NCBI GenBank assembly: GCA_020850415.1
Contig: JADZER010000038.1
Location: forward strand, 1 to 64,000
Direction of reading: 5' to 3'
DNA length: 64,000 nucleotides
From: Phycisphaerales bacterium
GTDB taxonomy: Bacteria; Planctomycetota; Phycisphaerae; Phycisphaerales; UBA1924
The notes under the pieces: generated by a model
The model's input: only the letters and a program-made list of their open reading frames with translations
Database searches by the model: none
What the model was told of the DNA's origin: nothing
Shown: positions 1-23,994 of the stretch, in pieces
Numbering within the stretch: position 1 is the stretch's first letter
How the letters are laid out: each line of letters starts with the position of its first letter
Translations under genes and position numbers: made by a program

Positions 1-2
1 CG

Positions 3-2634: not shown

Positions 2635-2739
2635 ATCTGCGCCAGCGGCGACACGCGGGCGGACTGGATCGAGGACGGCACGATCAACACGCTCGACTTC
2701 CTGGCATTCCTCGGCGAATGGGCCTCGGACTGCCCGTAA
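2635..2739 (+). pseudogene. Relic of a dockerin-domain C-terminus
   Basis: In one frame the sequence encodes a second dockerin loop (ADWIEDGTINTLDFLAFLGE followed by WASDC and Pro) and then TAA. This closely matches the second loops of the intact neighbours, such as ADWNGDGTINTQDFVAYL at the end of the 6912-8582 gene. No start codon, signal peptide or first calcium loop is in frame upstream. It appears to be the tail of a deleted secreted-protein gene. The usual terminal Gly-Cys has become Asp-Cys-Pro. Confidence 0.7.
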
Positions 2740-2769
2740 GCCCGGCCGCTCTTTTCACTCGCGCACTCT

Positions 2770-2795
2770 CGCCCGCGCCGCTGGTGCGGGCGTTT
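2770..2795 (+). terminator. Rho-independent terminator-like hairpin
   Basis: CGCCCGCGCC, loop GCT, then GGTGCGGGCG: ten pairs with one G-T wobble, followed by TTTCTC. It lies 30 bases after the dockerin relic's stop, so it was probably the terminator of that lost gene. The T-tract is short. Confidence 0.45.
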
Positions 2796-3022
2796 CTCAG
2801 TTGCGAAGGGGGCGGTGCCGACGGGCCAGCGAGCCGATCCCGCTGTTCGGCGGCGGGCCGGGGCTCGGCGGAAGGAGCCGGGGAAGTCGCGGGGATAGTA
2901 TCGGTGTGTCCGGCACCGCCGGCCTGTCGTGGCGGCGACGCGGGCGGTCGTCGGATGGGACCGTCGGGTAATGGTCTGCCGGGCGGGGTACAGGTGTCGG
3001 CGACCCCGGGGGCATTGATGCG

Positions 3023-6771: not shown

Positions 6772-6911
6772 GGGCGAACTGCAAAGAAAGCGATAGATGC
6801 CGATGTGGGTGACAAACCGCCCCCCACATCGCGTGCTGGATCTCCGGGGGGAGGGGCATCCCTCTGCTGAGCGTAGGCCAACACCACCGCATTCCCCTTT
6901 GGAGTCCCGCC

Positions 6912-8582: not shown

Positions 8583-8639
8583 GCGACACGACTAGCCTCG
8601 TGGACTGATGCCTCAATCCACGGCGAGGAGAACAGCGTC

Positions 8640-10016
8640 ATGAACCGTACCGTGCCGGTGTGTGCCGCGGTCCTCCTGAGCGCGGCCCAGTCGGGGCATG
8701 CACAGGACTGGACCGAGGAGTCAAAGCTCATCGCCTCCGAGGGTTCCGGGAATGACCGGTTCGGCACGAGCGTCGCTGTTAGTGGAGGCACCGCCCTTGT
8801 GGGCTGCCCCGGCGACGACGACCGCGGCTCCTGGTCAGGCTCGGTCTGTGTCTTCGGCCGTGTGAACGGTGAGTGGGTTCAAACGGCCAAGCTGCTGGCG
8901 GCGGACGGGGAGACCAATGACCAGTTTGGGTCGGCGGTCGCCATACAGGGGAACCTCGCCCTGGTGGGGGCTCCTCACGAGAGTGAGCGCGGGTTCTGGG
9001 CTGGCGCGGTCTATGTGTTCGAGTCCCAAGGCGGACAGTGGACACAAACGGCGAAGCTCACGGCTTCGGATGCCTATTCCGCCGACTACTTCGGCAGTGC
9101 GATTGCGCTTCAGGAGGATCTGGCCGTGATCGGCGCGTGGGGCGAGAGCGATACCGCCGGAGCAGCGTATGTCCTGGAGCGGCAGAACGAGGTCTGGCAT
9201 GAACAGCAGAAGCTCGTCGCCGATGCTCGCAACACGAACGACATCTTCGGCTCCGCCGTGACGGTGTCGAACGGGCGTATCGGCATCGGAGCGCAAGGCG
9301 ATGATGACCGTGCAGGAAACGCCGGGGCCGCGTTTGTCTTCGAGCGGGTTGGTTCGGAGTGGGTACAGACCGCGAAGCTCACGGCGTCCGACGGCATCGC
9401 GAACGACGGGTTCGGCACCGCGATCTCCGCGTCGGGCGACTCACTCCTCGTGGGCGCCCCAGGTGCTGATCCTCAAGGGTCCGGCTCCGGTGCCGGGTAT
9501 GTGTTTCGATGGGTCAGCGGCCAGTGGGCTCTCGACGGCAAGCTCGTTGGGTCCGGCGGGCACGCGGACGACCAGCTCGGCGTCGCCGTCAGTCTGGAGG
9601 GAGATCAGGCGCTCCTCGCGGCATGGGGCGATGATGAGTCCGGTTTCAACGCCGGTGCGGTCCTCGGCTTTACCCGCGTTGGCGGGAGTTGGGGCGAGAC
9701 CTCCAAACTGATGGCCGGGGATGCTGGCAGCCGAGACCAGTTCGGTGCGGCAGTCGCACGAGATGGGGAGGCGATACTCATCGGGGCGTACCTCGATGAT
9801 GACAACGGTGTGGACTCCGGGTCTGCGTATGTGTTTCGAGGGCCGTCCTCCTGCCCCGCCGATTTCAACCGCGACGGCGCCGTGAACACGCAAGATGTAC
9901 TCGCATTCCTCCAGGCCTGGGCGAACGGCCTCGCGGATGCCGACTTCAACGGCGACGGCTCCGTGAACACCCAGGATGTGATCGCGTTCCTCGGTGCTTG
10001 GGTCGCGGGTTGTTGA
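8640..10016 (+). CDS. Secreted FG-GAP beta-propeller protein with GC-type dockerin
   Basis: Protein of 458 residues. GAGGAG at 8624-8629 precedes the ATG, and a signal peptide follows (VCAAVLLSAAQSGHAQD). Seven FG-GAP repeats (NDRFGTSVAV, NDQFGSAVAI, ADYFGSAIAL and so on) predict a seven-bladed propeller. The C-terminus has loops DFNRDGAVNTQDVLAFL and DFNGDGSVNTQDVIAFL and ends WVAGC. It is a paralogue of the 937-2289 protein with the same fold, repeat number and anchor, but the repeat sequences have diverged. Ligand unknown; surface display or assembly is inferred from the dockerin-like tail. Confidence 0.85.
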   Translation: MNRTVPVCAAVLLSAAQSGHAQDWTEESKLIASEGSGNDRFGTSVAVSGGTALVGCPGDDDRGSWSGSVCVFGRVNGEWVQTAKLLAADGETNDQFGSAVAIQGNLALVGAPHESERGFWAGAVYVFESQGGQWTQTAKLTASDAYSADYFGSAIALQEDLAVIGAWGESDTAGAAYVLERQNEVWHEQQKLVADARNTNDIFGSAVTVSNGRIGIGAQGDDDRAGNAGAAFVFERVGSEWVQTAKLTASDGIANDGFGTAISASGDSLLVGAPGADPQGSGSGAGYVFRWVSGQWALDGKLVGSGGHADDQLGVAVSLEGDQALLAAWGDDESGFNAGAVLGFTRVGGSWGETSKLMAGDAGSRDQFGAAVARDGEAILIGAYLDDDNGVDSGSAYVFRGPSSCPADFNRDGAVNTQDVLAFLQAWANGLADADFNGDGSVNTQDVIAFLGAWVAGC

Positions 10017-10225
10017 GACCTGGAGCGGTAGGCGGGCGACGGCCACGCTTCCAGCGCCGTGCCCCACCAAGCCCCCGGGTCGCTGGAGCGGCAGTCACGC
10101 TTTGGTGGCAACCCGCAACTGTTTGTCGGAAAGGCGTTTACGGCCTTGAGCCCTGCCCCCCTCCCGAGGTACTGGTGCCCAAGCGCCCGCGCGAGCGGGC
10201 CTGAGCACCACCCGGGAGAGCCGCC

Positions 10226-10849
10226 ATGCCCCGTAGAACCGCCCGAGGGGAACCACCCATTTTCACCAACGCCGGTCGGCGCTTCCCGCCGGAGGTCCTG
10301 ACCGACGCGGAAGTCCGCGCCCTCCTGGCCGCCTGCGGCGACGGCACCCCGACCCACGCCCGCAACCGCGCCCTGATCGCCGTGCTCTACCGGGGCGGGC
10401 TCCGGGTCTCCGAGGCCCTCGCCCTCTACCCCAAGGACCTGGACCCCGCCACGGGGGCGGTGCGGGTTCTGTGGGCCAAGGGCGGCCGGGCCCGGACGAT
10501 CGGCCTGGACCCCGGGGCCTTCCGGCTGGTGGGGGAGTGGCTGCGGCTCCGGGCCGGTACGGGCCTCGACGCCCGCTACCCCCTGTTCTGCACCCCCCGG
10601 GGCAGGGCGGTGTCGTCCTCGTACATCCGCCGCCTCCTCAACCGCCTGGGCGAGCAGGCGGGGATTCAGAAGCGGGTCCACCCCCACGGGCTGCGCCACA
10701 CCCACGCCGCCCAGCTCCGAGCCGAGGGGGTGGACATCGGGATCATCTCGAAGCAGCTCGGGCACCGGTCGATCGCCACGACGGCCCGGTACCTGGACCA
10801 CATCGCTCCCTGGGCGGTGGTGGAGGCGATCAGGGGGAGGGAGTGGTGA
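10226..10849 (+). CDS. Tyrosine recombinase/integrase, catalytic domain only
   Basis: Protein of 207 residues consisting almost only of the tyrosine-recombinase catalytic domain. All active-site residues are visible: Arg in GGLRVSEAL, Lys in WAKGGRARTIGL, His-x-x-Arg in HPHGLRHTHA, His in QLGHRS and the nucleophile Tyr in TARYLDH. The usual N-terminal core-binding (SAM-like) domain of about 90 residues is missing, replaced by a short basic, Pro-rich leader, so it is shorter than XerC/D (about 300). It could be a specialised single-domain recombinase. A degraded copy of its last 50 codons lies at 12488-12650, with one Kelch gene between the two. It is a candidate for moving that cassette or the whole island; neither is shown. 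Confidence 0.85.
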   Translation: MPRRTARGEPPIFTNAGRRFPPEVLTDAEVRALLAACGDGTPTHARNRALIAVLYRGGLRVSEALALYPKDLDPATGAVRVLWAKGGRARTIGLDPGAFRLVGEWLRLRAGTGLDARYPLFCTPRGRAVSSSYIRRLLNRLGEQAGIQKRVHPHGLRHTHAAQLRAEGVDIGIISKQLGHRSIATTARYLDHIAPWAVVEAIRGREW

Positions 10850-11014
10850 AAGGCGATGTTGCGTGCGAGCGGCGGCTTGGCGGCGCGGTGAACGGTCGGC
10901 TATGTCAATGCTGACGCGGGCAACACTGGCGAGCCTCATGCGACTAGTCCGCGCCGCCGAGCCGGCGCTCGCGCCTGCTGCAACTCGCCCCGCGCTGACA
11001 CCAGAGGGGCTGCG

Positions 11015-12403
11015 CTAGCACCCGGCCGCCCAGTCGTTCAGGAACGCGAGGAAGTCCAGGGTGTTGACCGTGCCGTCGTGGTTGTAGTCGGCGATCCCAT
11101 CGCCCGATGCGTAGTGGAGCAGAAACTGCAGGACATCGCGGGTGTCGATCACCCCGTCGGCATTCATGTCGGCCGTACACACGACTGAGACGATTGCCGA
11201 ATCGCTCTCAGCCGCTCCACACGGATTGGTGACGGCGAGGGTGTAGTCTCCCGCATCGGAAAGCCGAACATCGACGGTGGTCAGCGTTGGCGTTCCGGCC
11301 CCGGAAACACGACCTCCGTCGGACAGGGGAATACCGTCGTGGAACCACCGGAAGGACCTTGGCTCACTCCCGTCTGCGCCTGCGGAGAGGACGAGCGTGG
11401 CACCAGCGTCCACAGTCTGCGAGTCGGGATCATCGGTGATCGTTGGAGCTTCGAGCGCACGGCACTCCCAGGTGTCGCGCAACTCACCGGGACCGAATCC
11501 CCCTTGGACGACAACCCGCGAGCGCGAGGAGTCGAAGCACATACCGTGCCCATAGCGTGCGCTTGGCCCCGCAACTGGTTCCTGGCTCCAAGTCGTGCCA
11601 TCGAATGTCCAGGTGTCTGCCGCAGGACCTCCACTGACATACCCGCCGTAGAGCACCACTACCTCGCGCGTGGGCTCGTACACCATCTGGTGCATATAGC
11701 GCGGACCAGGTCCTCCACCTGATACCTCTGTCCACTCGGCTCCGTCCCAGGTCCAAGTGTCCCCGAGGCCTCCGAACTCCCCCGCACCGCCAAAGAGGAC
11801 AATGACACCCCGCGCGTGGTCGAATGCGGTGGAGTGATGCCCCCTCGGACTCGGACCCTCTGAGGCGACCTGAGTCCAACTCGCACCGTCCCACGCCCAG
11901 GTGGTCCCGACATATGACGAACCGACGGAGCCGCCGAACAGGATCGTCTCTTCCCGCACGGCGTCATAGGTGGTGGTGTGGGCGTACCGGGGACCGGGCC
12001 CGGTGGTTGAGACACGAGACCAGTCCCGTTGCGTGCGGAGCCATGTATCTCCAAAGACGAGTGCGCCGTTCGTGCCACCGAAGAGCAGAATACCCCCGGT
12101 GGCCGCGTCGTGGTCCATGCCGCACCACATGCGCGGCTCAGGGATACCCGCCGACACCAATTCCCAAGAGCCACCGTCGAACTCCCATGTCTCTCCACCA
12201 GCGTCAAAGCCCCCGAATAGCACCGACACCCCGAGGGTGGGGTCGAACGCCATGCTGTGGATGGATCGTGTTGGTCCCCCCGCTTCTGTCCGCTCCGCCC
12301 ACTCAAAGCACTCCTGGGCCCATGCCTCGTTCACCGTTCCCGCGAATGCCAGCAGCGACATCCCGAGAGCAACGAGCGTCTTTCTTGCGGTATGCCTCAC
12401 CAT
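11015..12403 (-). CDS. Secreted Kelch-repeat protein with Ig-like and GC-type dockerin domains
   Basis: Protein of 462 residues. The ATG at 12403 is preceded by GGGAGG and followed by a signal peptide (TLVALGMSLLAFAGTVNEAWA). Residues about 35-320 hold six or so Kelch/galactose-oxidase-type repeats of about 50 residues (GDTWTWDGAEWTEVS...GPGPRYMH...VVLYGG), a beta-propeller. Residues about 325-405 look like an immunoglobulin-like domain (SQTVDAGATLVLSA...FRWFHDG...DAGDYTLAVTN). The end carries loops DMNADGVIDTRDV and DYNHDGTVNTLDF and WAAGC. No enzyme signature is visible. The gene is on the opposite strand to its secreted-protein neighbours and is bracketed by the recombinase gene and the recombinase relic. 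Confidence 0.85.
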   Translation of the reverse strand: MVRHTARKTLVALGMSLLAFAGTVNEAWAQECFEWAERTEAGGPTRSIHSMAFDPTLGVSVLFGGFDAGGETWEFDGGSWELVSAGIPEPRMWCGMDHDAATGGILLFGGTNGALVFGDTWLRTQRDWSRVSTTGPGPRYAHTTTYDAVREETILFGGSVGSSYVGTTWAWDGASWTQVASEGPSPRGHHSTAFDHARGVIVLFGGAGEFGGLGDTWTWDGAEWTEVSGGGPGPRYMHQMVYEPTREVVVLYGGYVSGGPAADTWTFDGTTWSQEPVAGPSARYGHGMCFDSSRSRVVVQGGFGPGELRDTWECRALEAPTITDDPDSQTVDAGATLVLSAGADGSEPRSFRWFHDGIPLSDGGRVSGAGTPTLTTVDVRLSDAGDYTLAVTNPCGAAESDSAIVSVVCTADMNADGVIDTRDVLQFLLHYASGDGIADYNHDGTVNTLDFLAFLNDWAAGC

Positions 12404-12487
12404 TGCGCCTCCCTCCCGGGCCTCGCGCCGACCCGCAACCGATAGGTTACCTCGGCGGCAGACCCACCGCAAGGCTGTTCCCATGTC

Positions 12488-12650
12488 GACACGCTCGCTG
12501 GCATCCACGCCACCCCGCTGCGGACGGAGGGCGCGGACAGCGGGCTCATCTCGAAGCAGCTTCTGTACCGATCGATTGCCAGGACGGCCCGCTATCGGGA
12601 TCACATCGCCCCTCGGCGGTTGTGGAGGCGATGAGGGGGATGGAGTGGTG
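12488..12650 (+). pseudogene. Decayed copy of the tyrosine recombinase 3' end
   Basis: Base-by-base this stretch matches the last ~160 bases of the recombinase gene at 10226-10849: CTCATCTCGAAGCAGCT, CGATCGATTGCCAGGACG, GATCACATCGCCC and GGCGGTTGTGGAGGCGATGA all have near-identical partners there. Frameshifts and substitutions break the frame. The segment encoding the active-site His (GHR) now reads LYRS, while the Tyr segment TARYRDH survives. It carries no start and no N-terminal half. Confidence 0.75.
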
Positions 12651-12661
12651 GGCGGAGCCAC

Positions 12662-15028
12662 CTACTCTGCCTTCAGGCTGGCCAAGCAACCGAGATGGGG
12701 CTCTGCCCTGAGGACCATCGACAACCACTGCTCCGCTCTGCTCGCGGCCACATACAGGCGGTTCCGCCGATCGGGGGGCATCCGTGCCGCGGGGCCGGAG
12801 AAGCGGTCATAGAGATCCGCCAAGATCACCACAGGGAACTCAAGTCCCTTCGTCTGAGTCACCGGCAGGATGTGAACGCAATCGGTCTTCTCAAGGTGCC
12901 GCTGGCCATCCCGAGTCCCCGTCAGGTGCACATCCACCATGTCTCCCTCGAGCTCCGCTTCCAAGCGCCGTTGGAGTCGGCGAAGGCGGTCTTTCTTGAC
13001 GGGGCCATCGAACACGAGGGCGACGGTGGCGTCTGGGATGGCCCGCCGTGCCTCCCGAATCTCTGCGGCGATCACCTCGGCCAAACGGGCGGCCCGCGGC
13101 TCTACCACCACTCGCGGTGCCGGCCCACCTCGCAGCGCGTTGGCTCGCCAGCGAGGCGTCTCGCCGTACAGCTCCTGGTAGAGCCCACGGACGAACGACC
13201 CCAGCTGCCGACTCTGCCGGTAGTTGATGTCAAACTCGCGACGCTCCGGCTTGAGCACATCGAGCACGCCCCAGTCCCGCAGCCCTCCGCCCTCGTGCAG
13301 TACTTGGCGCAGATCGCCGACCACCGTCATGGTCCCGCCTTCATCGAGCAGCCACGGCAGCGTGGCCGCGTGGGCGTGGGTCAGGTCCTGCGCCTCATCG
13401 ACCACGAGGTGCCTGAAGGTCGGCTCAGCAGCGCCCATCCTGAAGCCCCGCCCTTCCGAGGTGGTGAACACCTTGAGCGCCAGCCAGCCGCTGATCGCCA
13501 GGTCCGCCTCGTCGAAGCTCGCCGGTGAGCCCGTCGCCATCTCCTCCCACTGGTCGAGTGCCGCTTCGACTGCCTCCGTACCGAGTTCGGCGGCCCACTC
13601 CCGCTCAAGCCGCTCGAACTCCGGGGTGAGAAGCATCTGCGCCGTCCACCCGGCTCGGTCGGCGAACGCCCTGGCCAGCCGCCTCACCACGCCGGCGAGT
13701 TCACCCAAGCCGGTGTCTGCACCCAGGTCGCCCGATTCCCGCTCCTCACGGCGGTCCTTCTCACGCTGCAGCCAGCCCGCGAGGTCGTTGCTCAGGCTGA
13801 CACCGCGAACGGGCTGGAGTGAGAACTCATGGGCGGCGAGGCGCCTGATCCACCGATCCACCGTGAGGGCCAGGGATTCGGTCTCGGGTCCCCCCGCCTC
13901 AACCATCCTCTGCACCCACACCTCCCGCTGTCGCTCCCAGAGCGTCTCGGCATGAAGCCGGAATCCCGCCCACGCGGCCTCAAGAGCCCCGGGGCCGCCC
14001 TTGAGTCGCCGAAGCGCCCGGTTCCCCGCTCGCTGCTTGCCCGAGAGCGTCCCCGCATCGCGGCAGAGCTTGCGGTAGACATCCGCGAAGGTGGTACACC
14101 GCACCCGGTTGAGCCCGAGTGAGTCCCGCAACCGCTTGAGATACTGCACCATCTGCTCCGTGACCACCAGAATGCGGCAATCGCTCTCGGAGTAGAAAGG
14201 GGCATCCCGCTCCCGGTCCAGCTCAAACTGCTCCCACTGTCCGTCGAGCAGGCACGGCACGCGCATCAGCGCCAGGCTGGTCTTGCCGCTGCCGGGCGGT
14301 CCCTCGATGAGGACATTGGCGTTCAGCGGCAGGTGCATCGCGAAACGCTGCTGCGCGTCGGCTTCCGCGATGATCTCGTGCAGGCCGAAGTTGCGATCCA
14401 CTTCGAAGGCGCGCCCAGCGGGCGCCGGGACATCAACTCGGCCGCCTGCTTCGGTCGGCTCGCCGGCGGGGATTCCGCTGAGCAGCGACTCCAGGGTCTG
14501 CTCGTCCGCGAACTCCACGGATTCTTGGTCGTTCTCGAACCGGATAGTCTGGGCCGTGGGCAGGATCGCGCCGTAGCCGCACCTGGTCTTGACCTCGAAG
14601 ATCGTGGTCTGGCGCGGGCTCCTGCGAAACTCGACGGTCTTGCCGATGTCGGAGCCCATGAGACCGGAGGTGATGGGGCTGGTCCAGCTCAGCAGCTCCC
14701 AGGACTCATCATCAGCGCCGACCCCGCCAGTCTCTCGGGCTTTGGAGATCAGGAAGGCGATCGGCTGGCCCTCCGAGTGGCGGTCTGTAACCGCCGCCTC
14801 CACCGAGCAGAAGAACGCCTCCCGCCCGACACGCTCCAAGGCGGCCTTCTGCACTTTCGTGAACTGCTGCCGCTCCCGCAGATTAGGGTCGCCGGTGATG
14901 TCCTCGTGGAAGACGGCGACCGGAATGCGCCGGCCCCGATCGCGCGCTTCGACGAGCAACTCCCTGGCTCGCGCCTTGTCCGCCTCCAGACGAGCCCCAG
15001 CTTCGACAACCGTCCGCTCCAAGGCCAT
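12662..15028 (-). CDS. UvrD/Rep-like superfamily 1 helicase of a defence-like operon
   Basis: Protein of 788 residues. Walker A is GPPGSGKTSLAL with Lys249, motif II is VVDEAQD with Asp544-Glu545, followed by VVGDLRQVLHEG (motif III), NYRQS (motif IV region), TQTKGLEFPVVIL (motif V) and YVAASRAEQ (motif VI). These are the motifs of an ATP-driven 3'-5' DNA helicase/translocase of the UvrD family. The first ~200 residues precede the motor and may hold a nuclease-like or recognition domain I cannot name. The ATG at 15028 overlaps the upstream stop as TGATG and has GGAGG five bases upstream, so it is translationally coupled to the PLD-like gene. Last gene of the four-gene operon. Confidence 0.85.
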   Translation of the reverse strand: MALERTVVEAGARLEADKARARELLVEARDRGRRIPVAVFHEDITGDPNLRERQQFTKVQKAALERVGREAFFCSVEAAVTDRHSEGQPIAFLISKARETGGVGADDESWELLSWTSPITSGLMGSDIGKTVEFRRSPRQTTIFEVKTRCGYGAILPTAQTIRFENDQESVEFADEQTLESLLSGIPAGEPTEAGGRVDVPAPAGRAFEVDRNFGLHEIIAEADAQQRFAMHLPLNANVLIEGPPGSGKTSLALMRVPCLLDGQWEQFELDRERDAPFYSESDCRILVVTEQMVQYLKRLRDSLGLNRVRCTTFADVYRKLCRDAGTLSGKQRAGNRALRRLKGGPGALEAAWAGFRLHAETLWERQREVWVQRMVEAGGPETESLALTVDRWIRRLAAHEFSLQPVRGVSLSNDLAGWLQREKDRREERESGDLGADTGLGELAGVVRRLARAFADRAGWTAQMLLTPEFERLEREWAAELGTEAVEAALDQWEEMATGSPASFDEADLAISGWLALKVFTTSEGRGFRMGAAEPTFRHLVVDEAQDLTHAHAATLPWLLDEGGTMTVVGDLRQVLHEGGGLRDWGVLDVLKPERREFDINYRQSRQLGSFVRGLYQELYGETPRWRANALRGGPAPRVVVEPRAARLAEVIAAEIREARRAIPDATVALVFDGPVKKDRLRRLQRRLEAELEGDMVDVHLTGTRDGQRHLEKTDCVHILPVTQTKGLEFPVVILADLYDRFSGPAARMPPDRRNRLYVAASRAEQWLSMVLRAEPHLGCLASLKAE

Positions 15029-16311
15029 CACATCCTCCAGGTGTAGACAAGGACATCGATGAGTGCGACCCTACCGTCCCAAAGCTCACGCGACTCCTCG
15101 CTCCGGGGTGGCCCGCTGGCATACCAAGGCGTACTCCAGAACTGTCCAAGCGCTGCTTCGTAGCCGTGCCATGTGTGCAGACTGGTCATCGACACCCTGA
15201 GCAGTTGCGCAAGTTCGCGCTCCGATGCCCCGTTCAGCGAGAAGAAGCGGTCGGGACGGGCAAGGGTGAGCAGCCTGGTAACCACGGCCATCCGAAGCCG
15301 CTCCCGGCGGGTTATTGACTGGAAGAGTCGCTCTCCGGCTTGCAGGACCTCTCGGTCAGTCTTGGCCGCACGAACCTCCGGGAGCAGCCGGTCGATATCG
15401 CGACGAAGCGCCGCATTGGTGGCAAGTTCCTTGCGAGCCTGGCCATTCGCAGTGAGGCGTCCGAAGAAGCCGCAGTCCGCAATTGGTGGGCTTGTCTTTC
15501 CTCCCAGCAGTTGCAGGAACGCTGGAGTCCCTGCATCGGGCAGCGGCTTCCGTAGGATGGGTCGGGTGACTCTCAGGGTCTCTGTGTAGGACAGATTCTC
15601 TGGGTCCTCGGGGAAGAGCGCGTCTTCGTCGAATCTCGTGCGGGCCGCATGGCGGAGCATGCGCTCGTAGTCAGGCCACGCGGCAGTGAGTAGCTCCGGA
15701 AGCGCCACGCCACCGCCTCCTCGGACCCTGGGCGCGTGCTCGAGGTCCTCAGCTCGTCGCAACTGCCCGAATCGTCCGGACTTCGGGTCCGTCCAAACGC
15801 TTCGATACCATGCCAGCCAGCGCGAGGTTACAGGGTCCGCTCCGCTTCGCCACTGATCCATCGATGCTTGCCAAGCGCTCGCGGCGTCAGAATCCAGTCG
15901 GAGATGGACCGCTGCCTCGCGGTTCGACATGAACGCGCCCTGTGTCAGGTTCACGCTTCCGACGATCGCGTTGCTACCGTCCCGCCCCAGAAACAGGTAG
16001 ACCTTGGGGTGAAACAACTGCTGTGAGTCCGGAGCCACCCAAGTGCGGTTGCCCAGCCGCATGAGCGACTCCAGGGCGTCGGGGTGCGTCATGTCAAACG
16101 CACGCCCCACAAGTGCGTGAACGGGCAAGCCGGCCCGCTCCAACTCGTTGAGTGCCCAGCCGGGACGAGCCCAAGCGACTGCGATCTCGACCGCGGTCGC
16201 CTGCTCCAAGCAGTCTCGGAAGCACCGCTGGATTGCCACCGGGGTGTCCAGGAGGTGCGATCCTGACTGGCCGGTTGCGCGGGCCGCGATCTGAGCTCGG
16301 TTCTTGCTCAC
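15028..16311 (-). CDS. PLD-fold putative nuclease of a defence-like operon
   Basis: Protein of 427 residues from a GTG at 16311 with GGAGGGGGAG just upstream; the start lies 17 bases after the methyltransferase stop. It has one phospholipase-D-type HxK motif (FHPKVYLFLG, His101 and Lys103) followed by the expected Asn in VGSVNLTQGA about 14 residues later. That is half of an HKD active site, so a dimer would be needed for catalysis, as in small PLD nucleases. The C-terminal third (ARPDRFFSLNGASERELAQL, then LWDGRVALIDVLVYTW) looks like a helical DNA-binding region, unassigned. Its stop overlaps the start of the UvrD-like helicase. Role inferred: nuclease effector or guide of the operon. G+C is lower than in flanking chromosomal genes (about 62% in one 60-base line counted). 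Confidence 0.75.
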   Translation of the reverse strand: MSKNRAQIAARATGQSGSHLLDTPVAIQRCFRDCLEQATAVEIAVAWARPGWALNELERAGLPVHALVGRAFDMTHPDALESLMRLGNRTWVAPDSQQLFHPKVYLFLGRDGSNAIVGSVNLTQGAFMSNREAAVHLRLDSDAASAWQASMDQWRSGADPVTSRWLAWYRSVWTDPKSGRFGQLRRAEDLEHAPRVRGGGGVALPELLTAAWPDYERMLRHAARTRFDEDALFPEDPENLSYTETLRVTRPILRKPLPDAGTPAFLQLLGGKTSPPIADCGFFGRLTANGQARKELATNAALRRDIDRLLPEVRAAKTDREVLQAGERLFQSITRRERLRMAVVTRLLTLARPDRFFSLNGASERELAQLLRVSMTSLHTWHGYEAALGQFWSTPWYASGPPRSEESRELWDGRVALIDVLVYTWRM

Positions 16312-16328
16312 AACTCCCCCTCCGCGTG

Positions 16329-19300
16329 TCACTCGGTCACAAAAGCCCCCGGCCAGCCGCCGTGTTCTTCGATCACCTCGTCGATCTCGCCCATAAGGCG
16401 GATGGTCTCGTTGAGGGCGATGACGATGCGGTGGTAGTGGGCGATGTCCTCGTCGGTCAGCACGCGGCCGGGGTGGGGGTTCTTGCCGCCGGCGACGCCC
16501 TTGCGGTCGCTGAGCCACTTGTGGCAGACCTGGTAGCCGCCGATGTGGAAGTTCCAGACGGCCTCGGGCACGCCGTCGAAGTAGGCGGTGTCGTTGATGT
16601 AGACGCGGCCGAGGCCGTCGCCCATGGGGCTCTCGGCCATGGCCTTGCCCCCCTCGCCGACCTTGCGGACCTCGCGGTCGCCGTGGGGGGCGTCGTGGAA
16701 GGTGGTAATGGGCGTGGCGAGGGGGTTGGGGGTGGTGGCGCCGGGCTGGTTCCAGGAGGCATGGGGGTAGTCGTCTTCGAGGAGGTGGAGAGCGACCAGA
16801 TCAGCCCCCGATGACACGAGTCGCCCCGCAAGCACTCGATCGGTGGTCAGGAGCAAATGGGGGTAGTCAATCCGGAGTTGTCCGCGATACCGCTCCCTGT
16901 ATGTCGCTGAGAACACCTCTGCATAGATGTAGTGGAGCAACCAGTCTGGAGGTGGTGCGTCACCGCAGAGGGCGGTTGCCCGAGCCATGAATGGACCACT
17001 GAAATTGGGCATTGCTTCTGGTGCCAGTTCGCGCAGCTCGGATCCTTCGAAGCGAAACAGCGGAAAGACAGCCGATTGAGTTGTGCGCTCTCCGCATTTC
17101 GCCTCGCAAATGGTGCGTGTCACGAAAAAGTGGTCCATGCGATCCGACTTGTTGCTGCGTGCGGAGATCAGGCCGATGTTCGCGCCCCTGACCAGATGGC
17201 GCATTACGGTGTCCCGTCGTCGCGTCACCACCTGATCGTGGTAGACGACGAAGCGGAGATCAAATGGCCGGTAAAGAAGCGGAACGACTGATGCCAGCGG
17301 CACGCCGTGTTGGGTGGCTAGCGTGACAGCATCCGCCATATTGAATGCGATGCACTCGGAATCCTGGCCGGTCACAATGCCCACCGAGTTCACCGGCATC
17401 GCGGCGTCGAGGTTCCAGCCAGACCAGTACTCGGCAGCTGCAGCCTCATTCTGCGGGATGAAAAGATAAAACGGCGACGCGGGCTGCAGTTGGCTCGATG
17501 CTGGCACCTGTCCCAACAAGACCCGCCCCTTCTCATTGCGACTCCCTAGGAACTCCGCATGTCGGACTTGAGGATGCACCCCTGATTCCGAGGCCAGTCG
17601 CGACATGATCGAGATGGCGACGCCCTGTTGAATATCGAAGACATTCTCGTCACCAGTGGCGGCCGCCGCTTCGTCGTTCCTGTTCGAATTACCACGGAGA
17701 TCCAAAAAGAGCAGTTGCGAGAAAGTATTGAGAAGCGACTGGCGCATTCCTCGGAAGGTGGGATTGCCCAGAAACCCGTGGTTGGTGATGAAACCCATTG
17801 TGCCGACGGAGGTGGAGTCGAGGTGCGTCTGCGCCAGACGGACGAACTTCACATAGTCATCCTGGAGCCACTTTGGGTTGCGTTCCCCAAGCGGGGCGCC
17901 ATCCGCCATAAAGTAGGGCTGAATGAGTTGGCCTATGTGAGTCGGTGTGCCATCGTCGGCAGTGCTTTTGTTGGACGAATGACCGGCATAGGGCGGGTTG
18001 CCAATCACGACCGATGCGCGGAGTGTTCGTTTAACCGCGTTCGCGGCCCTCGCCTCGTGCGCCAGAAAGGGCGCAACGAACTCGAGCATCTCGCCCAGAT
18101 CAGTCGGCGGCTCGAGCGAGTTCGTCAAGAACACTCGCAGCCTCTGCTCGGACTGGAAGCGGTACCCCGTGTCCGCGAGCTTGAGCCCGATCTTCATGTG
18201 GGCGATGGCGTAGGGGGCCATCATCAGCTCGAAGCCGTAGAGGCGGGGGAGCAGGTGGTCGGGGACATACTCGTTCCAGAGGCGGTCGATTTGGGCCTTT
18301 GTCTTGCCCTCCTCCTCCCAGTGCCCGGTCATGCGGCGGTGGATGAGGTCGATGACCTCGACGAGGAAGGTGCCGGTGCCGGTGGCGGGGTCCAGGATCT
18401 GGACGAAGGGGTCGGAGGGTTTGACGGTGTCGGGGATGGTGAAGGGGCGGGGGTCGGAGGCAGAGGAGGGAGAAGAGGTAGGAGAAGGAGCCCTCTCCCC
18501 TGCCCTCTCCCGCCGGGGGCGGGAGAGGGAGGCAGAGGCCTCGGCGTCGGCTTCGCCGACAGGGCCCGACTCGCTTGGGGTGGGGGAGGAGTTGAAGCGT
18601 TCGGCCATCTCGCCCCAGGTGGTGGTGTCGGCGAGGCCGAGGGGGAGGCCGAACTCCGTGCGAAGGATCTCGTCCACGGAGCGGACGATGAAGGAGACGA
18701 CGGGGCGGGGGGTGTAGAAGACGCCGCGGGAGACCTTCTGCTTCTTGTCGTAGACCTCCATGAAGTACTCGTAGAAGTGGATGACGGGGTCCTCGCCCGG
18801 GCGCTCGCGCCCGAAGTCGGCAATGACGGCCGCGATGTTGGCTTCGCGGAGGAGGTCCACGACCTCGTTGACGCCGAGCTCGTCGAAGTCGATGCCGACG
18901 GCGCCGGGGGTCTGCTTGTGGCGGCCGCCGATGCGGAGGAACTCCTCCATGAGCTCGCGGAGGAAGGGGTTGGTGTTGGGGATCATGAGGGCCGCGTCGT
19001 CGGCGACGAGGCCGGCGGGGCGGGACATGCGTGCCGAGAGCAGGCCGTAGGCGATGGTCTGGGCGTACATGTCGGCGAAGCCGGAGTGGTCGAGGTCGTG
19101 GATGAGGGAGTCCTGGAAGGCTTGGTGGAGCTTGCGGAGGGGGCCCTTGGGGGATTCGAGGGCGATGGCGGCGAGGACGCGGGCGCGGATCTTCCTGGCG
19201 AGCTCGGCGAGGGCCGCGGCGAGGGCCTTGGAGGTGGTGATGACCTCGCGGTTGCGGAGGGTGAAGGCGGAGCGCCACTGGATGCGCCACTCGTCGGGGG

Positions 19301-19835
19301 TGGCGTCGTCGGGCCAGAGGAGGTGGTCGCGGAGTTGGCGTTCGACCCATCCGAGCTTGCGGTCGGTGTCGTCCGCGTCCCAGCCCAGGACACGGAGGGT
19401 GGGGAGGCCGTTCTGGGCGTCGTCGGCGAAGTGGGCGAAGTCGAGGCGGCGGGTCTGGTCCTCGCCGAAGGCGGAAATGAAGAGGAGGTCGTCCTGGTTC
19501 CAGGTCTTGTGCTCGGTGGGGTTGTTCGACTCGCGCTTCTTGGATACCAGCTTGCCGAGGATGCGGCGCATGGCGACCACGGGGAGCTTCTTACGGTCGA
19601 ACTCGACGAAGAAGATGCCGAAGGGCTGCTTGTTCGAGAGCGGGCGAAGCTGCTTGATCGACTTGATCTTGGCGGCGGTGTTGGGATCGAGTCCGAGATC
19701 CTCCTCGGCCGAGTAGTTGAAGAACGCCAGATCCTCCACCTCGTCCCAGTCCATGTCGGGGATGGGCCAGTCCAGTTCCTCCTCGAGGTAGTGGAGCAGT
19801 TGGTCAAAGGTGCGGATGTCTTCAAGCGTCGGCAT
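16329..19835 (-). CDS. N6-adenine DNA methyltransferase, type-ISP-like (restriction-modification)
   Basis: Protein of 1168 residues. The SAM-binding motif I is DPATGTGTFLVEV from Asp482 (usual form DPACGSGxFL), and catalytic motif IV is NPPY at 613-616, so it should methylate adenine-N6 in DNA. Upstream are the typical VSRGVFYTPRPVVSFIVRS (motif X region) and a long N-terminal helical domain. The C-terminus (HIGGYQVCHKWLSDRKG, then HYHRIVIALNETIRLMGEID) resembles the specificity domain of type ISP restriction enzymes. No helicase or Mrr nuclease is in this chain; the preceding gene supplies an SNF2 motor and PLD domain. Residues about 416-456 are a low-complexity insert derived from a palindromic repeat, and residues about 560-1010 are encoded by DNA of lower G+C. 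Gap to the upstream gene is 8 bases. Confidence 0.88.
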   Translation of the reverse strand: MPTLEDIRTFDQLLHYLEEELDWPIPDMDWDEVEDLAFFNYSAEEDLGLDPNTAAKIKSIKQLRPLSNKQPFGIFFVEFDRKKLPVVAMRRILGKLVSKKRESNNPTEHKTWNQDDLLFISAFGEDQTRRLDFAHFADDAQNGLPTLRVLGWDADDTDRKLGWVERQLRDHLLWPDDATPDEWRIQWRSAFTLRNREVITTSKALAAALAELARKIRARVLAAIALESPKGPLRKLHQAFQDSLIHDLDHSGFADMYAQTIAYGLLSARMSRPAGLVADDAALMIPNTNPFLRELMEEFLRIGGRHKQTPGAVGIDFDELGVNEVVDLLREANIAAVIADFGRERPGEDPVIHFYEYFMEVYDKKQKVSRGVFYTPRPVVSFIVRSVDEILRTEFGLPLGLADTTTWGEMAERFNSSPTPSESGPVGEADAEASASLSRPRRERAGERAPSPTSSPSSASDPRPFTIPDTVKPSDPFVQILDPATGTGTFLVEVIDLIHRRMTGHWEEEGKTKAQIDRLWNEYVPDHLLPRLYGFELMMAPYAIAHMKIGLKLADTGYRFQSEQRLRVFLTNSLEPPTDLGEMLEFVAPFLAHEARAANAVKRTLRASVVIGNPPYAGHSSNKSTADDGTPTHIGQLIQPYFMADGAPLGERNPKWLQDDYVKFVRLAQTHLDSTSVGTMGFITNHGFLGNPTFRGMRQSLLNTFSQLLFLDLRGNSNRNDEAAAATGDENVFDIQQGVAISIMSRLASESGVHPQVRHAEFLGSRNEKGRVLLGQVPASSQLQPASPFYLFIPQNEAAAAEYWSGWNLDAAMPVNSVGIVTGQDSECIAFNMADAVTLATQHGVPLASVVPLLYRPFDLRFVVYHDQVVTRRRDTVMRHLVRGANIGLISARSNKSDRMDHFFVTRTICEAKCGERTTQSAVFPLFRFEGSELRELAPEAMPNFSGPFMARATALCGDAPPPDWLLHYIYAEVFSATYRERYRGQLRIDYPHLLLTTDRVLAGRLVSSGADLVALHLLEDDYPHASWNQPGATTPNPLATPITTFHDAPHGDREVRKVGEGGKAMAESPMGDGLGRVYINDTAYFDGVPEAVWNFHIGGYQVCHKWLSDRKGVAGGKNPHPGRVLTDEDIAHYHRIVIALNETIRLMGEIDEVIEEHGGWPGAFVTE
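18503..18529. repeat. Palindromic repeat element inserted in frame in the methyltransferase gene
   Basis: A perfect 12-bp stem, CCCTCTCCCGCC with loop GGG and GGCGGGAGAGGG, lies inside the coding frame. A second perfect hairpin (GTCGGC, loop TTC, GCCGAC) is at 18546-18560. The surrounding block of about 120 bases (roughly 18470-18590) encodes a Ser/Pro/Arg/Glu-rich insert just upstream of SAM motif I. Such GC-rich hairpins are typical of intergenic REP-like elements and are unusual in a conserved enzyme. Confidence 0.7.
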
Positions 19836-19843
19836 TGAATCCC

Positions 19844-22800
19844 CTAGTTGAGCTCCATCCAGGCGATGAGGCGGGGCTTGAGACCTGCCGGGAGATTCAC
19901 GGCCTTCTCGTAGGTGCGGTGAATGTGCTTCTCGACGAGCTTGCGTGCCTCGATGAGATCGGATTGCTCCTGGCGGCAGACGCGGGGCGTGTCGGGCGTG
20001 CTGCGGATGTGGGCGGCGATCTGCGCATCACCCTCGAGGATCTCGCCGGTGCCGAGCGTCAGGAGATACCAGCGGGCCTCGCCGGCCTGCTCGGTCCAGG
20101 CTTCGGCGATGGGGGCCTCCTCGGGGGCGTCGCTGACCCGCCCGGGGAGGGCGTAGCAGCAGAACAGGGCGGCGCCCTGCAGCTTGGTCTCGGGGTCGGC
20201 CTCACGCCCGGAGAAGATGCGCCCGGGGAGGGCGTCGAGCCGCTGGTCGAGGTCGGGGTGGTCGGTGAGGAGCTTCTCGTACTCCAGGCGGAGTGCCTCG
20301 CGGGCTGTGGCGGTGCCCTCGTACTTGGCGTTGAGATCGCGGAGGGCGTCGAAGTCGTCCCGGTCGGTGAGGAGCTTGCGGCCCTCGATGCCGAAGACCT
20401 TGCTGATGCGGAGGGTCTTGCGGCTGACCCTCTCGTAGAGGCGGAGGAGGACATCGAGGTCGTCGGGGGGGAGGAAGTTCCAGTAGACGATGCGGCCGCG
20501 CTCGCCCTTGAGCTCGGGGTGGTCGGCGAGGAGCTGGTGCTCGACCTTGGGGTTGAGGCGGCGATCGACACGCCCGATCCGCTGCATGAGGCGGACGGGG
20601 TTCCAGTGGAGGTCGTAGTTGATCAGCCGCGTGGCGTCTTGGAGGTTGAGGCCCTCGGAGAGGACATCGGTGGAGATGAGGACGCGGACCGCGTCCTGGT
20701 GGGTGGCGGCGAGCTTGGGGGAGGTCGTGCCGTTGTAGTACGGGGCGAAGCGGCGGATGACATCGAGGCGGCCATCGGGGGAGGTCTTGCCGTCGATGAC
20801 CTCGAGGCCGTCGATGCCGGCGGCGCTGAGCTGCTCGCCCAGGTAGCTCGCGGTGTCGGCGAACTCGGAGAAGATCAGGACCTTCTTGCCCTTGAGTTCC
20901 TTGTCGGATTTGAGGAGCCTGACGAGCTTCTGGAGCTTGTCGTCGTGGGCGGGGGTGAACTTCTGGAGCTGTTCGAGGAAGCCGCAGAGCTCGGTGAGGT
21001 CGTCGATGGTGTCGTCGAGCATCGCGTCGATGTCGTACTCCGTGCGGGAGAGCACGACGACCTCTTGAAGGAGCTCGGGCGGGACGACATCCTCCTCGGG
21101 CTCGTCATCACCGAAGAGTTGCCGCTGGTGGCGGTCGGCGAAGTCCTGGTGCTCGCTCACGCGGCCGAGGAGCTTCTCGTATTTGTGCTTCCACTTGGCG
21201 AGGCGGTCCCGCTCGTGGGGTGAGGTCGCGTGCAACTGCATCCAGGCGAGGAGCTTGAGGAGCAGGCGCTCGCAGGACGATTCAAAGGCCCTGGCGGAGC
21301 TTTCAAACCGCTTGAGGAAGTTGGTCCGGACCAGACCGATGACCTGCAACTGACGGTTGGCCTCGATCTTGGCCTCTTTGGACTCGTCCTCCTCGATCGC
21401 GTAGGCGGCGGGGTTGTAGATGGCGAGGCGGAAGAGCGGGGCCTTCTTGGAGAAGGCCTTCTCGATCGCGTCGAGGAGTGCTCCGTAGACCTTGCGGACA
21501 TTGTAATCGGCGACGATCGGGTCCTCGCGGGTGGGGAACACCGCCGACTTGCCGTGCTGGACCTGCTGGCTCTCGCGGACATACGCGCGGCTCCGCTGGA
21601 CGACGAGTTCGCGGAACAGGCGGTCCTGCTCCAGGACCTCCTCGGCCTCTGCCGCGTCGATGAAGGCGGCGCCGTCGGTCGTACCGTGCTGCTCATGGGC
21701 TCGCTTGTCGATCGCCTTCTCAAGCTTGTTGAAGTGGCCCCGGAGGGAGTTGATGCCGATGGAGGCGAACCGGTCATCCTTGCGGCGAGAGAAAAGCTCG
21801 ATCATGTGGCGTAGGTCGTTGATGTGGTTGTTCACGGGAGTTGCCGTCAGGAGGAAGATCTCCTTGCCGCCGATGACGGGCTCGAGCATGTGGAACAGCC
21901 GCCGGTAGCGGGAGGGCTTCCTGCCGTCACGGGCGACCAGCTTGCCCGAGCCGGGCTCGACATCGACCTGGACCCCGGGGTTGCGGAAGTGGTGGGCCTC
22001 GTCGATGACGACCGCATCGACCTTGCTCCGGATGGTCTCCATGACCCGGGGCCAGTTCCGGTCTCCGGAGGGCTCGCGAGTGATGTCGGTGTGGTTGATG
22101 ATCTCGAGGTTATTGAAGGACGGGTCGAGCAGGTCGGGGCAGAACTGCTGGATCGCGGCCTCCCAAACGGCATTGCGGCCCGACTTGGGGACGATCAGGG
22201 CCACCCGCTTACGGTCCCTCACCACCAGACGCTCGAGCAGCATCATGCCGATGAAGGTCTTGCCCAGACCGACGCCGTCGCAGAGGAAGGCCCCGCCCCA
22301 GTTCTCCGCGATCTGGACGAGGTTGCGATAGCCGTCCTGCTGGTAGCGGTCGAGGACCTTGAACACCTGGGAACCGCCCTGTTCCGGGGGGCGGGTTTCC
22401 CAGTCCTTTTCGGAGGACGGGGCGTCGCGGAACAGGTGGTGGAGGCTCTGGGCGTAGACCTCGAAGGGGGAGAACTCCCGGGTGTGGCGTTCGAGAACCC
22501 GGAGGATCTCGGCAGTCACATCCTCCGCGTCGGCCCAATGCCGCTCGTACCACTCCTGGAGGAGGGCGACCTCGGCGCCGCCGAAGCGGGTGTTCAGCTC
22601 GACATTCTGCGTGAGGCCTGGGCTGGTGAGATTGGACGAGCCGACGAGGGCGAAGGAGCCCACGACCTCGCTGCGGGCGTGGGTGATGTACGCCTTAGCG
22701 TGGAAGCGGTCCTTGCGGTAGACGCGGCACTCGATCTGGCCGGAGCGAATCCCCTCGACGATCCGGGGGACGCCGGTCAGGAAGTCATTGCGTTGCTTCT

Positions 22801-23080
22801 CCGCTTCGAGGCTCCGATCGAGGGTGTCCTTTGCGGCCTCCAGCCCCGCCTCGAAGGCACGCTTCGTGCGGAGAGAGACCTCGTCACCCATGAGGAGTCG
22901 GACTCGGTCGATCTGGCTCCAGGGGTCGCCAATCGCCAACAGGCCGCCGATCTCGAAGTACCCCGTGGCGACATCGAGCTGCCGGGCGAGCGGTGCCCAT
23001 TCGCGGAGGTAGCGGGCGACTTTCCAGTCGGCATCGCTGTTGTCCACGATGAACAGTTCACCGCCGCGTTCTCTCAACAC
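19844..23080 (-). CDS. PLD-nuclease/SNF2-family helicase fusion of a defence-like operon
   Basis: Protein of 1078 residues from a GTG at 23080 with GGAGG seven bases upstream. The N-terminal ~190 residues form a PLD-like domain (HAK with His127 and Lys129, then GSSNLTSPGL). An SF2/SNF2 motor follows: DGVGLGKT with Lys274, DEAH at 360-363, LLTATPVNN, then the second RecA lobe with VLIFSEFADTASYL, STDVLSEGLNLQ and QRIGRVDRRLNP. The C-terminus has an unassigned region. The product should be an ATP-driven DNA translocase linked to a nuclease. It is the first gene of the operon and is followed after 8 bases by the methyltransferase gene, so together they could be a split equivalent of single-chain type ISP restriction enzymes, or relate to the SNF2 component of DISARM. 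A GTGTACAC-containing control region lies upstream. Confidence 0.88.
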   Translation of the reverse strand: MLRERGGELFIVDNSDADWKVARYLREWAPLARQLDVATGYFEIGGLLAIGDPWSQIDRVRLLMGDEVSLRTKRAFEAGLEAAKDTLDRSLEAEKQRNDFLTGVPRIVEGIRSGQIECRVYRKDRFHAKAYITHARSEVVGSFALVGSSNLTSPGLTQNVELNTRFGGAEVALLQEWYERHWADAEDVTAEILRVLERHTREFSPFEVYAQSLHHLFRDAPSSEKDWETRPPEQGGSQVFKVLDRYQQDGYRNLVQIAENWGGAFLCDGVGLGKTFIGMMLLERLVVRDRKRVALIVPKSGRNAVWEAAIQQFCPDLLDPSFNNLEIINHTDITREPSGDRNWPRVMETIRSKVDAVVIDEAHHFRNPGVQVDVEPGSGKLVARDGRKPSRYRRLFHMLEPVIGGKEIFLLTATPVNNHINDLRHMIELFSRRKDDRFASIGINSLRGHFNKLEKAIDKRAHEQHGTTDGAAFIDAAEAEEVLEQDRLFRELVVQRSRAYVRESQQVQHGKSAVFPTREDPIVADYNVRKVYGALLDAIEKAFSKKAPLFRLAIYNPAAYAIEEDESKEAKIEANRQLQVIGLVRTNFLKRFESSARAFESSCERLLLKLLAWMQLHATSPHERDRLAKWKHKYEKLLGRVSEHQDFADRHQRQLFGDDEPEEDVVPPELLQEVVVLSRTEYDIDAMLDDTIDDLTELCGFLEQLQKFTPAHDDKLQKLVRLLKSDKELKGKKVLIFSEFADTASYLGEQLSAAGIDGLEVIDGKTSPDGRLDVIRRFAPYYNGTTSPKLAATHQDAVRVLISTDVLSEGLNLQDATRLINYDLHWNPVRLMQRIGRVDRRLNPKVEHQLLADHPELKGERGRIVYWNFLPPDDLDVLLRLYERVSRKTLRISKVFGIEGRKLLTDRDDFDALRDLNAKYEGTATAREALRLEYEKLLTDHPDLDQRLDALPGRIFSGREADPETKLQGAALFCCYALPGRVSDAPEEAPIAEAWTEQAGEARWYLLTLGTGEILEGDAQIAAHIRSTPDTPRVCRQEQSDLIEARKLVEKHIHRTYEKAVNLPAGLKPRLIAWMELN

Positions 23081-23131
23081 CTGAAGTCCTCCGGCCGGGT
23101 TTGCGCTTCCCTTCTCCTGCCCGAACGGACA

Positions 23132-23190
23132 GTGTACACGAGTCCTTCAGGATACGGAGGCAAGTCCGCCAGCGCGGTGTACACCGCGCT
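23132..23190 (-). promoter_or_regulatory. Candidate operator pair upstream of the defence-like operon
   Basis: A perfect 20-bp palindrome, AGCGCGGTGTACACCGCGCT, occupies 23171-23190. Its 8-bp core GTGTACAC recurs at 23132-23139, 45 bases away centre to centre. Both lie between the operon's first codon (23080) and the island edge. On the minus strand the nearer copy contains TACACT, a possible -10 box. No convincing -35 was found. Binding of a dimeric repressor is inferred from symmetry and position only. Confidence 0.5.
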
Positions 23191-23294
23191 CCGCCGCGAA
23201 ATCCCCCCCAAGATCCGCAACGCCGCGCAACGCTTGCAATCCGCAACCCCGCCTGGTATCGTGGTTTAGAGATCCGGGCTGGGGCCTAGGGCCG

Positions 23295-23336
23295 TTCGGG
23301 ACGAGAAGGTCGGAGGTTCAAATCCTCTCACCCCGA
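23295..23336 (+). other. 3' half of tRNA-Pro(CGG): island attachment scar
   Basis: From the anticodon loop TTCGGGA (anticodon CGG at 23297-23299) onward the sequence is a normal tRNA-Pro: CGAGA (3' anticodon stem), AGGTC (variable loop), T-stem GGAGG, loop TTCAAAT, CCTCT, acceptor strand CACCCCG and discriminator A. The expected 5' half (acceptor CGGGGTG, D-arm, TCTCG stem) is absent: the five bases before the loop give only two pairs with the 3' stem, and no 5' exon occurs in the 200 bases upstream. Tyrosine recombinases typically cross over in this loop. The fragment is not expected to be a functional tRNA. Confidence 0.82.
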
Positions 23337-23349
23337 TTCACGCCTATAG

Positions 23350-23385
23350 CCCCGCAGGTCTCGGACTTGCGGGGTTCTCGTTTTT
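23350..23385 (+). terminator. Rho-independent terminator of the original tRNA-Pro gene
   Basis: Stem CCCCGCAGGTC / GACTTGCGGGG (eleven pairs, one G-T) with loop TCG, then TTCTCGTTTTT. It begins 13 bases after the tRNA-Pro 3' end, the right place for the native tRNA terminator, which supports this side being original chromosome. Confidence 0.75.
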
Positions 23386-23484: not shown

Positions 23485-23994
23485 ATGAGCGCCCGCGACC
23501 CCCACGACACGATCGGCTCGATCCTGGACATCCACACGATGATTCACGGGTTTCTCATCGAGGCCGTCGAAGATGTCCCGGATTCCCGTATGACCGAGCA
23601 GCCGGGCGCCATCGTCAACCACCCGGCGTGGACGCTGTCGCACCTCAACGCGTACGCGGGGGTATTGCTGTCGATGCTCGACGACCCGAGCGTGCCGACG
23701 GCCGACGCCGAGATGGAGCGGTTCGGGTATGGCACCACGCCCGTGCCCGACCGCGCCGCCTACGCGACGACGCGCGAACTCCTCGCCGTGTTCAGAGATC
23801 GGAACGCGCGAGTGGCCGCGGTCGTCGCCGAGAGGCACGCGGACTACTTCCCGAGGCCTTCGCCGGAGAAGTTCCGCCCATATTCGCCGACCATCGGGCA
23901 CATCGCCATCACGCTGCTCGTGGCGCACCCGCCGCATCACCTGGGCCAACTGAGGCAATGGCGCCGCGCGGCCGGAATCGCGGAAGAGGCGTGA
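23485..23994 (+). CDS. DinB-like metal-binding four-helix protein
   Basis: Protein of 169 residues from the ATG at 23485 (an upstream in-frame start gives unrelated, compositionally odd residues). It fits the DinB/YfiT-like fold: HxAW-type helix (NHPAWTLSHLNAYAG, about residues 50-64) and a C-terminal HPPHHLGQLRQWRRAAG carrying the remaining metal-binding histidines. Family members bind a metal and include thiol-S-transferases and damage-inducible proteins; the substrate here cannot be told. No operon partner is evident. First intact gene of the chromosome to the right of the island scar. Confidence 0.8.
   Translation: MSARDPHDTIGSILDIHTMIHGFLIEAVEDVPDSRMTEQPGAIVNHPAWTLSHLNAYAGVLLSMLDDPSVPTADAEMERFGYGTTPVPDRAAYATTRELLAVFRDRNARVAAVVAERHADYFPRPSPEKFRPYSPTIGHIAITLLVAHPPHHLGQLRQWRRAAGIAEEA

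Follow-up and report, generated by a model that had tools for sequence, protein, structure and literature searches.

A displaced tRNA-Pro half marks the right end of a phage-derived island in a Phycisphaerales bacterium, with a putative state-dependent switch of its integrase

Introduction

Why should a Phycisphaerales genome carry the 3' half of a tRNA-Pro(CGG) gene with no 5' half in front of it? The window analysed here is a 64-kb stretch of DNA from contig C38 of such a genome, in which positions 23295-23336 hold 42 bases of tRNA-Pro(CGG), namely its 3' half, beginning with the first anticodon-loop base and ending with the discriminator. The original prediction took them for the edge of a mobile island with defence cargo. 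Anticodon-class tRNA islands, with an anticodon-centred attP, are common (2083 islands in Islander; PMC4383910). For ICEKp1, a 2026 study found int to be expressed from the tRNA promoter in the integrated state and from a 3'-end promoter after excision, with stem-loops in the 5' UTR attenuating int, and the results for ICEclc and ICEEc1 are similar (PMC13023037). Here we ask what the fragment delimits and how the integrase of the island could be controlled.

The tRNA-Pro fragment and its intact counterpart

ARAGORN calls no complete tRNA at 23295-23336, and the only tRNA that it calls in the 64-kb window is a tRNA-Met at 42531. Allowing up to 3 mismatches, the 42-base part occurs at exactly two sites in the 4.43-Mb genome, in the window and at C22:54861-54902. 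The latter copy has the same strand as written and lies in a tRNA-Pro(CGG) that ARAGORN calls intact. The exact repeat comprises 46 bp (window 23293-23338, identical to C22:54859-54904), which cannot be a product of chance. To the left of 23293, the sequence is not tRNA but the island's own end, common to other islands, and the G+C content is ~0.66 to the left of 23.3 kb and ~0.71 to the right of it. The right boundary comprises the following features.

23293..23338, + strand: attR core, the 46-bp copy of the tRNA-Pro(CGG) 3' part (the fragment, 23295-23336, extended by 2 bp at both ends)
23348..23376, + strand: native tRNA-Pro terminator hairpin, displaced together with the fragment (13 pairs, tail CTCGTTTTT)
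23485..23994, + strand: first native gene to the right of the island, DinB superfamily (PF12867), which adjoins the intact tRNA-Pro in relatives with an empty site

The predicted 3' half is thus borne out by its exact match on C22, and the missing 5' half by the island end to the left of 23293 together with the ARAGORN result. The terminator that had been proposed to follow the fragment is present as sequence, the 13-pair hairpin being followed by CTCGTTTTT, and in the relative G034 a similar hairpin comes directly after the intact tRNA-Pro. The gene had also been described as broken exactly at the anticodon loop. Across islands, the first base of this loop is indeed the constant breakpoint, but here the identity begins 2 bp before the loop. 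Similarly, the intact tRNA-Pro with an identical 3' half that had been expected exists, on a contig that reads into the island, but this contig is C22, outside the window and not joined to it. We are nearly certain from the sequence that the fragment is the attR of a tRNA-Pro island. The crossover lies at the anticodon loop, as in a textbook anticodon-class tRNA island, and the boundary itself is ordinary.

Empty and occupied sites in relatives

The comparison covered 61 related genomes, 37 of which hold the tRNA-Pro part. The gene order to the left of the tRNA, SecA, pilin-like gene, tRNA-Pro, is found in C22 and in many relatives, and to the right of the fragment the window continues with DinB (starting 190 nt after the core start), SRPBCC and ArsR. 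At the empty site of G034, the order is pilin-like gene, tRNA-Pro, DinB (188 nt), SRPBCC and ArsR; in G023, SecA, pilin-like gene, tRNA-Pro and DinB (191 nt); and in G022, tRNA-Pro and DinB (293 nt). In G001 (CP053450.1, isolate PNC22, same genus), a single contig carries the intact tRNA and, 33,558 bp away in direct orientation, a 3' fragment. The proposal to look at relatives lacking the island was therefore vindicated, with three genomes uninterrupted at the native flank and G001 bearing two copies that flank an island. One intact and one partial tRNA copy with the same island ends were also found in G009 and G026, and G021 has an island with other ends at this site.

Island extent, genes and phage kinship

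The other island end lies on C22, where an integrase gene starts 120 bp after the tRNA-Pro on the same strand. It encodes a 463-aa tyrosine integrase (L003:11020-12411; PF00589, 7.6e-11; phrog_1, 9e-27). C22 extends 8.6 kb past the tRNA, and the fragment lies 23.3 kb into the window, so the island measures at least 31.9 kb and is broken by an unsequenced assembly gap.

C22:54828-54904, same strand as the fragment: attL, the rebuilt tRNA-Pro(CGG), intact gene by ARAGORN
C22:54905-63492, no strand: left part of the island, outside the window, contig C22 tail
1..23292, no strand: right part of the island up to the contig start, in the window (C38)

Past the integrase follow a 477-aa ORF without family, a DUF1580-like gene, an NrS-1 polymerase-type primase and a ParB-methyltransferase; the core genes after the integrase are common to G001 at 47-70% identity. 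The G001 island has the same site, the same ends, core genes at 47-77% identity and a second recombinase at 87%. Its cargo differs, consisting of metal-type efflux genes (OEP, CusB-type, AcrB-type), whereas the window has an operon of SNF2, ISP, PLD and UvrD genes.

19844..23080, - strand: SNF2-type helicase with PLD-like domain (PF00176, PF00271, PF13091; PADLOC HKD+Snf2)
16329..19835, - strand: Type ISP/IIG-like restriction-methyltransferase (PF18135; PADLOC REase_MTase_IIG, 1.1e-176)
15028..16518, - strand: ORF with PLD-like nuclease domain (PF13091)
12662..15031, - strand: UvrD-like helicase (PF13361, PF13538)
10226..10849, + strand: second, short tyrosine recombinase (PF00589), 87% identical to one in the G001 island

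The SNF2/PLD, Type ISP-like, PLD and UvrD genes form one minus-strand operon in the window. To call the cargo a defence cargo, as the original prediction did, is fair for 12662-23080, but 1-11 kb is not obviously defence. Within the island limits, 937-10016 encodes paralogous FG-GAP/dockerin proteins, a right-handed beta-helix/dockerin protein, a Ser/Thr kinase with WD40 repeats and an ECF sigma factor; these are ordinary-looking planctomycete genes that were perhaps captured. The recombinase at 10226-10849 has no N-terminal arm-binding domain, and in G001 the second recombinase is followed by a UvrD remnant that resembles the UvrD gene of the window. It is maybe a nested cargo module.

The closest relative outside the genomes, L255 (IMG/VR IMGVR_UViG_3300021604_000058), is a temperate phage with the same tRNA-Pro(CGG), leader and palindrome and an integrase of about 69% identity. 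Like the island, it has an HTH gene, an NrS-1-like primase and a ParB-methyltransferase. Unlike the island, it has terminase, portal, capsid(-protease) and cement genes. As L255 is a tailed phage at the same tRNA with the same leader, the family includes tailed temperate phages. No lambda-type portal was found in the window's genome, which holds two related terminases, on C25 and C50, not linked to the island. Because of these related terminases on other contigs and the missing portal, we call the island phage-derived. Neither relaxase nor type IV secretion genes were found among the ORFs scanned on the C22 tail and the window. Elsewhere, this genome has at least two more related phage modules: C50:96000-115900 (L261) holds a ParB-methyltransferase and a terminase, and C25:4591-6858 (L260) has a terminase on a contig whose edge resembles another integrase N-terminus.

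The right-end element and the palindromes

Just inside the right boundary lie two short elements.

23172..23189, no strand: right-end palindrome GCGCGGTGTACACCGCGC, candidate arm-type site of the integrase; two copies in the genome, one per island end
23234..23262, + strand: outward promoter-like element TTGCAA-N17-TATCGT, with hexamers, spacer and fixed distances conserved in 17 islands

In all 17 islands in which both motifs were located (two further G068 ends do not have one motif in the exact form searched), the palindrome start precedes TTGCAA by exactly 62 bp, and a 17-bp spacer of variable sequence separates this hexamer from a TATCGT-like box. Counted to the first base of the loop, the second box lies 32 bp from the anticodon loop in nine islands, whose targets are Pro(CGG), Pro(TGG), Ala(CGC) and Thr(TGT), and 33 bp from it in seven islands at Asp(GTC). 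The element is directed outwards, across the att core. In a generic sigma-70 promoter scan, 23234-23262 fell below the cut-off, and planctomycete promoters are poorly known; the promoter claim thus rests on conservation. We consider it fairly likely that the element is a promoter used in the excised circle.

The leader at the left end contains the palindrome GCGCGGTGT-N-ACACCGCGC, which together with GCGCGGTGTACACCGCGC at the right end makes the only two copies in the window's genome. Islands of the Asp clade have GCGCGGTGC as the half-site at either end, so that the palindromes change in step. A copy outside the leader transcript and the co-change at both ends speak for a role in DNA binding. 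The palindrome cannot be part of the mRNA leader only, given its copy upstream of the right-end promoter. Lying ~120 bp on either side of the crossover, the palindromes are probably integrase arm sites; they may also be regulator sites.

Several further island ends deserve mention. In G078:C2 and G364:C18, the left and right palindromes lie 47.8 and 48.4 kb apart, each pair on one contig, which suggests complete Asp-tRNA elements of phage size. In L198 (G068:C30) and L203 (G007:C222), a tRNA-Ala(CGC) 3' half without its 5' half stands directly before the left end, and in L198 a right end precedes this 3' half. These attP-like junctions represent either tandem islands or an assembled excised circle. 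Among IMG/VR sequences, no attP junction for Pro(CGG) was found; one Gly right end was found, at a contig edge. After DinB, the window has GGTGTACTGTCACACCGATT at 24010-24036, and the near-identical GTACTGTCACCCCGATT lies upstream of the leader in L127 and L197, two islands without an intact tRNA. The string may be a secondary attachment site or a remnant common to these loci.

A structured leader at the left end

Across the family, about 110-130 nt separate the tRNA 3' end from the integrase start. The first ~70 nt, which begin exactly at the tRNA 3' end, form a helix P0 enclosing the hairpins P1 and P2. We compared the leaders of ~50 relatives with many tRNA targets, whose integrases share down to about 35% identity. 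RNAalifold, unaided, found P0 and P2, with both-side changes in 12 of 13 pairs (P0, P2 and part of the palindrome stem). For 39 leaders, 88.8% of cells were paired, both-side pair changes numbered 109 vs 30 in shuffles, and covariation was 0.479 vs 0.157 in shuffles (0/500 for every measure); the signal collapsed when the leader was slid by one column. Both-side changes in 57 leaders numbered 174 vs 43, and 15 leaders outside the training set gave 43 against a permuted mean of 10 and a maximum of 20 (1000 permutations). The unpaired AA on the 5' side hardly varies, nor does the UU of the P1 loop.

A covariance model of the leader has exactly one match in the window's genome, at the tRNA end on C22, and copies in 29 of the 61 relatives. 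Among 18 inspected matches, 14 start no more than one base from the 3' end of an intact tRNA. Some of the matched tRNAs, for instance Val(TAC) and Ile(GAT), are absent from the training set, and matches also occur in other Planctomycetota classes, mostly between a tRNA and an integrase of the island family. In a tree of 51 integrases, the leader was kept throughout at least 18 changes of tRNA target; the Pro clade holding the integrase of the window's genome has an SH-aLRT of 99. Rfam 15, searched with nine loci, returned only the tRNA at E up to 1 and left the leader unmatched. We found no prior description of the fold in the papers searched, earlier surveys of RNA motifs and islands having been checked via Rfam and Islander.

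The leader helices contain 24 G-U and 22 A-C combinations, equal numbers that do not prove an RNA strand over folded DNA, and we rejected this count as a decisive argument. In the window's genome, moreover, the three-helix fold is not the minimum-energy fold. On balance, we lean towards a leader that works as RNA on integrase expression.

Folding the leader of the window's genome as a single sequence, the 3' strand of P2, GGCGGCGC, pairs with GCGCCGCC, the stretch between the Shine-Dalgarno sequence and the integrase start codon. Among 22 leaders less than 72% identical, the leaders' own combinations of these two regions scored 17.3 vs 13.8 +/- 0.6 for permuted partners, and 0 of 20,000 permutations reached 17.3. 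The three-helix fold and the start-covering fold are mutually exclusive, which fits what a translational switch needs. A two-fold switch in the leader is a tentative reading of these data.

Discussion

The sequence directly shows the two tRNA copies, the integrase next to the intact one, the empty sites in relatives and the shared ends, and from them we infer how the locus would work. The island recombined into tRNA-Pro(CGG) with a crossover at the anticodon loop. As it carried a 3' half of its own, the gene was made whole again at the left end (attL, C22:54828-54904), and the original 3' half was displaced with its terminator to 23293-23376. In the integrated state, the integrase would belong to the transcription unit of the tRNA, separated from it by the leader, which directly adjoins the tRNA 3' end and would limit read-through, translation of the integrase or both; transcription from the right-end promoter would meet the displaced tRNA half and then the native terminator. 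After excision the ends would join, and the promoter at 23234-23262 would read across the att core and the leader into the integrase and the replication genes, favouring re-integration. The states of the switch would be the three-helix fold and the start-covering fold, and its inputs the tRNA promoter when integrated and the right-end promoter in the circle. It is conceivable, though we would not yet count on it, that the leader represents a new class of structured RNA in Planctomycetota, located at occupied tRNA 3' ends, with folds that read the origin of the transcript.

This anatomy appears to fit the ICEKp1-type switch point by point, in unrelated hosts and in elements of phage type. As in ICEKp1, ICEclc and ICEEc1, the integrase gene adjoins the tRNA in the same orientation and the native terminator is displaced to the far end. 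Those elements have a 3'-end promoter that reads across attP and stem-loops in the int 5' UTR, for which the candidate counterparts here are a promoter-like element and the structured leader. Unlike these conjugative elements of Proteobacteria, the relatives here are phages, no conjugation genes were found among the ORFs scanned, and the leader has a conserved fold with covariation, beginning where the tRNA ends. By this analogy, the right-end promoter and the leader together probably switch the integrase on and off. With the Islander 'A' class, the island shares a tyrosine integrase beside a restored tRNA, a displaced 3' fragment and a crossover at the anticodon loop; it differs in its Phycisphaerae host, its family-wide leader and its putative right-end promoter at fixed distances. 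Beyond the known systems, our analysis contributes a conserved leader fold that stays attached to the tRNA end whichever tRNA is the target, and a right end of fixed geometry.

We consider it unlikely that the locus is an ordinary island boundary throughout, with the right-end motif and the leader serving as attP arm or integrase-binding DNA and with neither promoter nor RNA switch. Such a reading would suit the frequency of anticodon-centred attP sites (2083 Islander islands; PMC4383910), the palindrome, which with its copy upstream of the promoter at the right end is clearly a feature of the DNA, and the wobble pairs, which do not settle the strand. However, hexamers with a variable 17-bp spacer and fixed spacing are the signature of a promoter rather than of a uniform protein footprint, covariation of nested helices over ~50 nt is unexpected for binding sites in duplex DNA, and the pairing of the start region co-varies as well.

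The locus could also be a dead scar, an old insertion beyond excision whose cargo is fixed in the chromosome. The integrase has the catalytic R, K, R, H and Y, with N412 at the variable H position (HxxR); this H-to-N change, the lack of a portal gene in the genome and the G001 integrase, split over three frames, would agree with a scar. We rejected N412 as proof of a dead integrase, as 21 of the 51 family members have N or Y there (28 have H, 16 have Y and 5 have N). The 46-bp repeats are identical and the split frames of G001 may be sequencing indels. All catalytic residues other than this one variable position being intact, it is plausible that everything between the tRNA copies is mobile, as had been predicted, and we regard a scar as doubtful.

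That positions 1-23292 of the window and the C22 tail belong to different elements at the same tRNA is quite improbable. C22 and C38 have no end overlap and are unjoined in the assembly, so that the continuity of a single island is inferred from the family, in which tandem elements at one tRNA do occur (L198, L203), and further related phage modules exist in the window's genome on C25 and C50. Yet the palindrome and the tRNA part have two copies each in the genome, so that no third boundary is seen, and both ends bear matching family signatures. No contig bridging C22 and C38 was identified in the genome; C25 and C50, which carry related terminases, were rejected as the missing piece because their other genes and ends do not bridge the gap. 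We hold that the C22 tail and the window very probably form one island. Finally, chance or an assembly duplicate of the tRNA sequence is dismissed, for although contig-end overlaps can fake copies, as in G003, which we rejected as a two-copy genome for this reason, the fragment lies 23 kb inside the 133,683-bp C38, with unique flanks and native genes in conserved order, and the empty-site comparison already refutes this origin.

The explanation as a whole, the attR of a phage-derived island whose integrase would be subject to a state-dependent switch, is one that we hold with high confidence. The tRNA-Pro boundary sets the limits of the defence cargo. Planctomycetota genomes are mostly draft assemblies that break inside islands of this tRNA-integrase family, and the covariance model together with the right-end signature allows their ends to be called base by base. 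Over at least 18 changes of target tRNA, the integration site, the putative outward promoter and the leader of this family have retained a fixed geometry, which makes it testable how an integrase inside a host tRNA transcription unit stays quiet and how such integrases switch tRNA targets.
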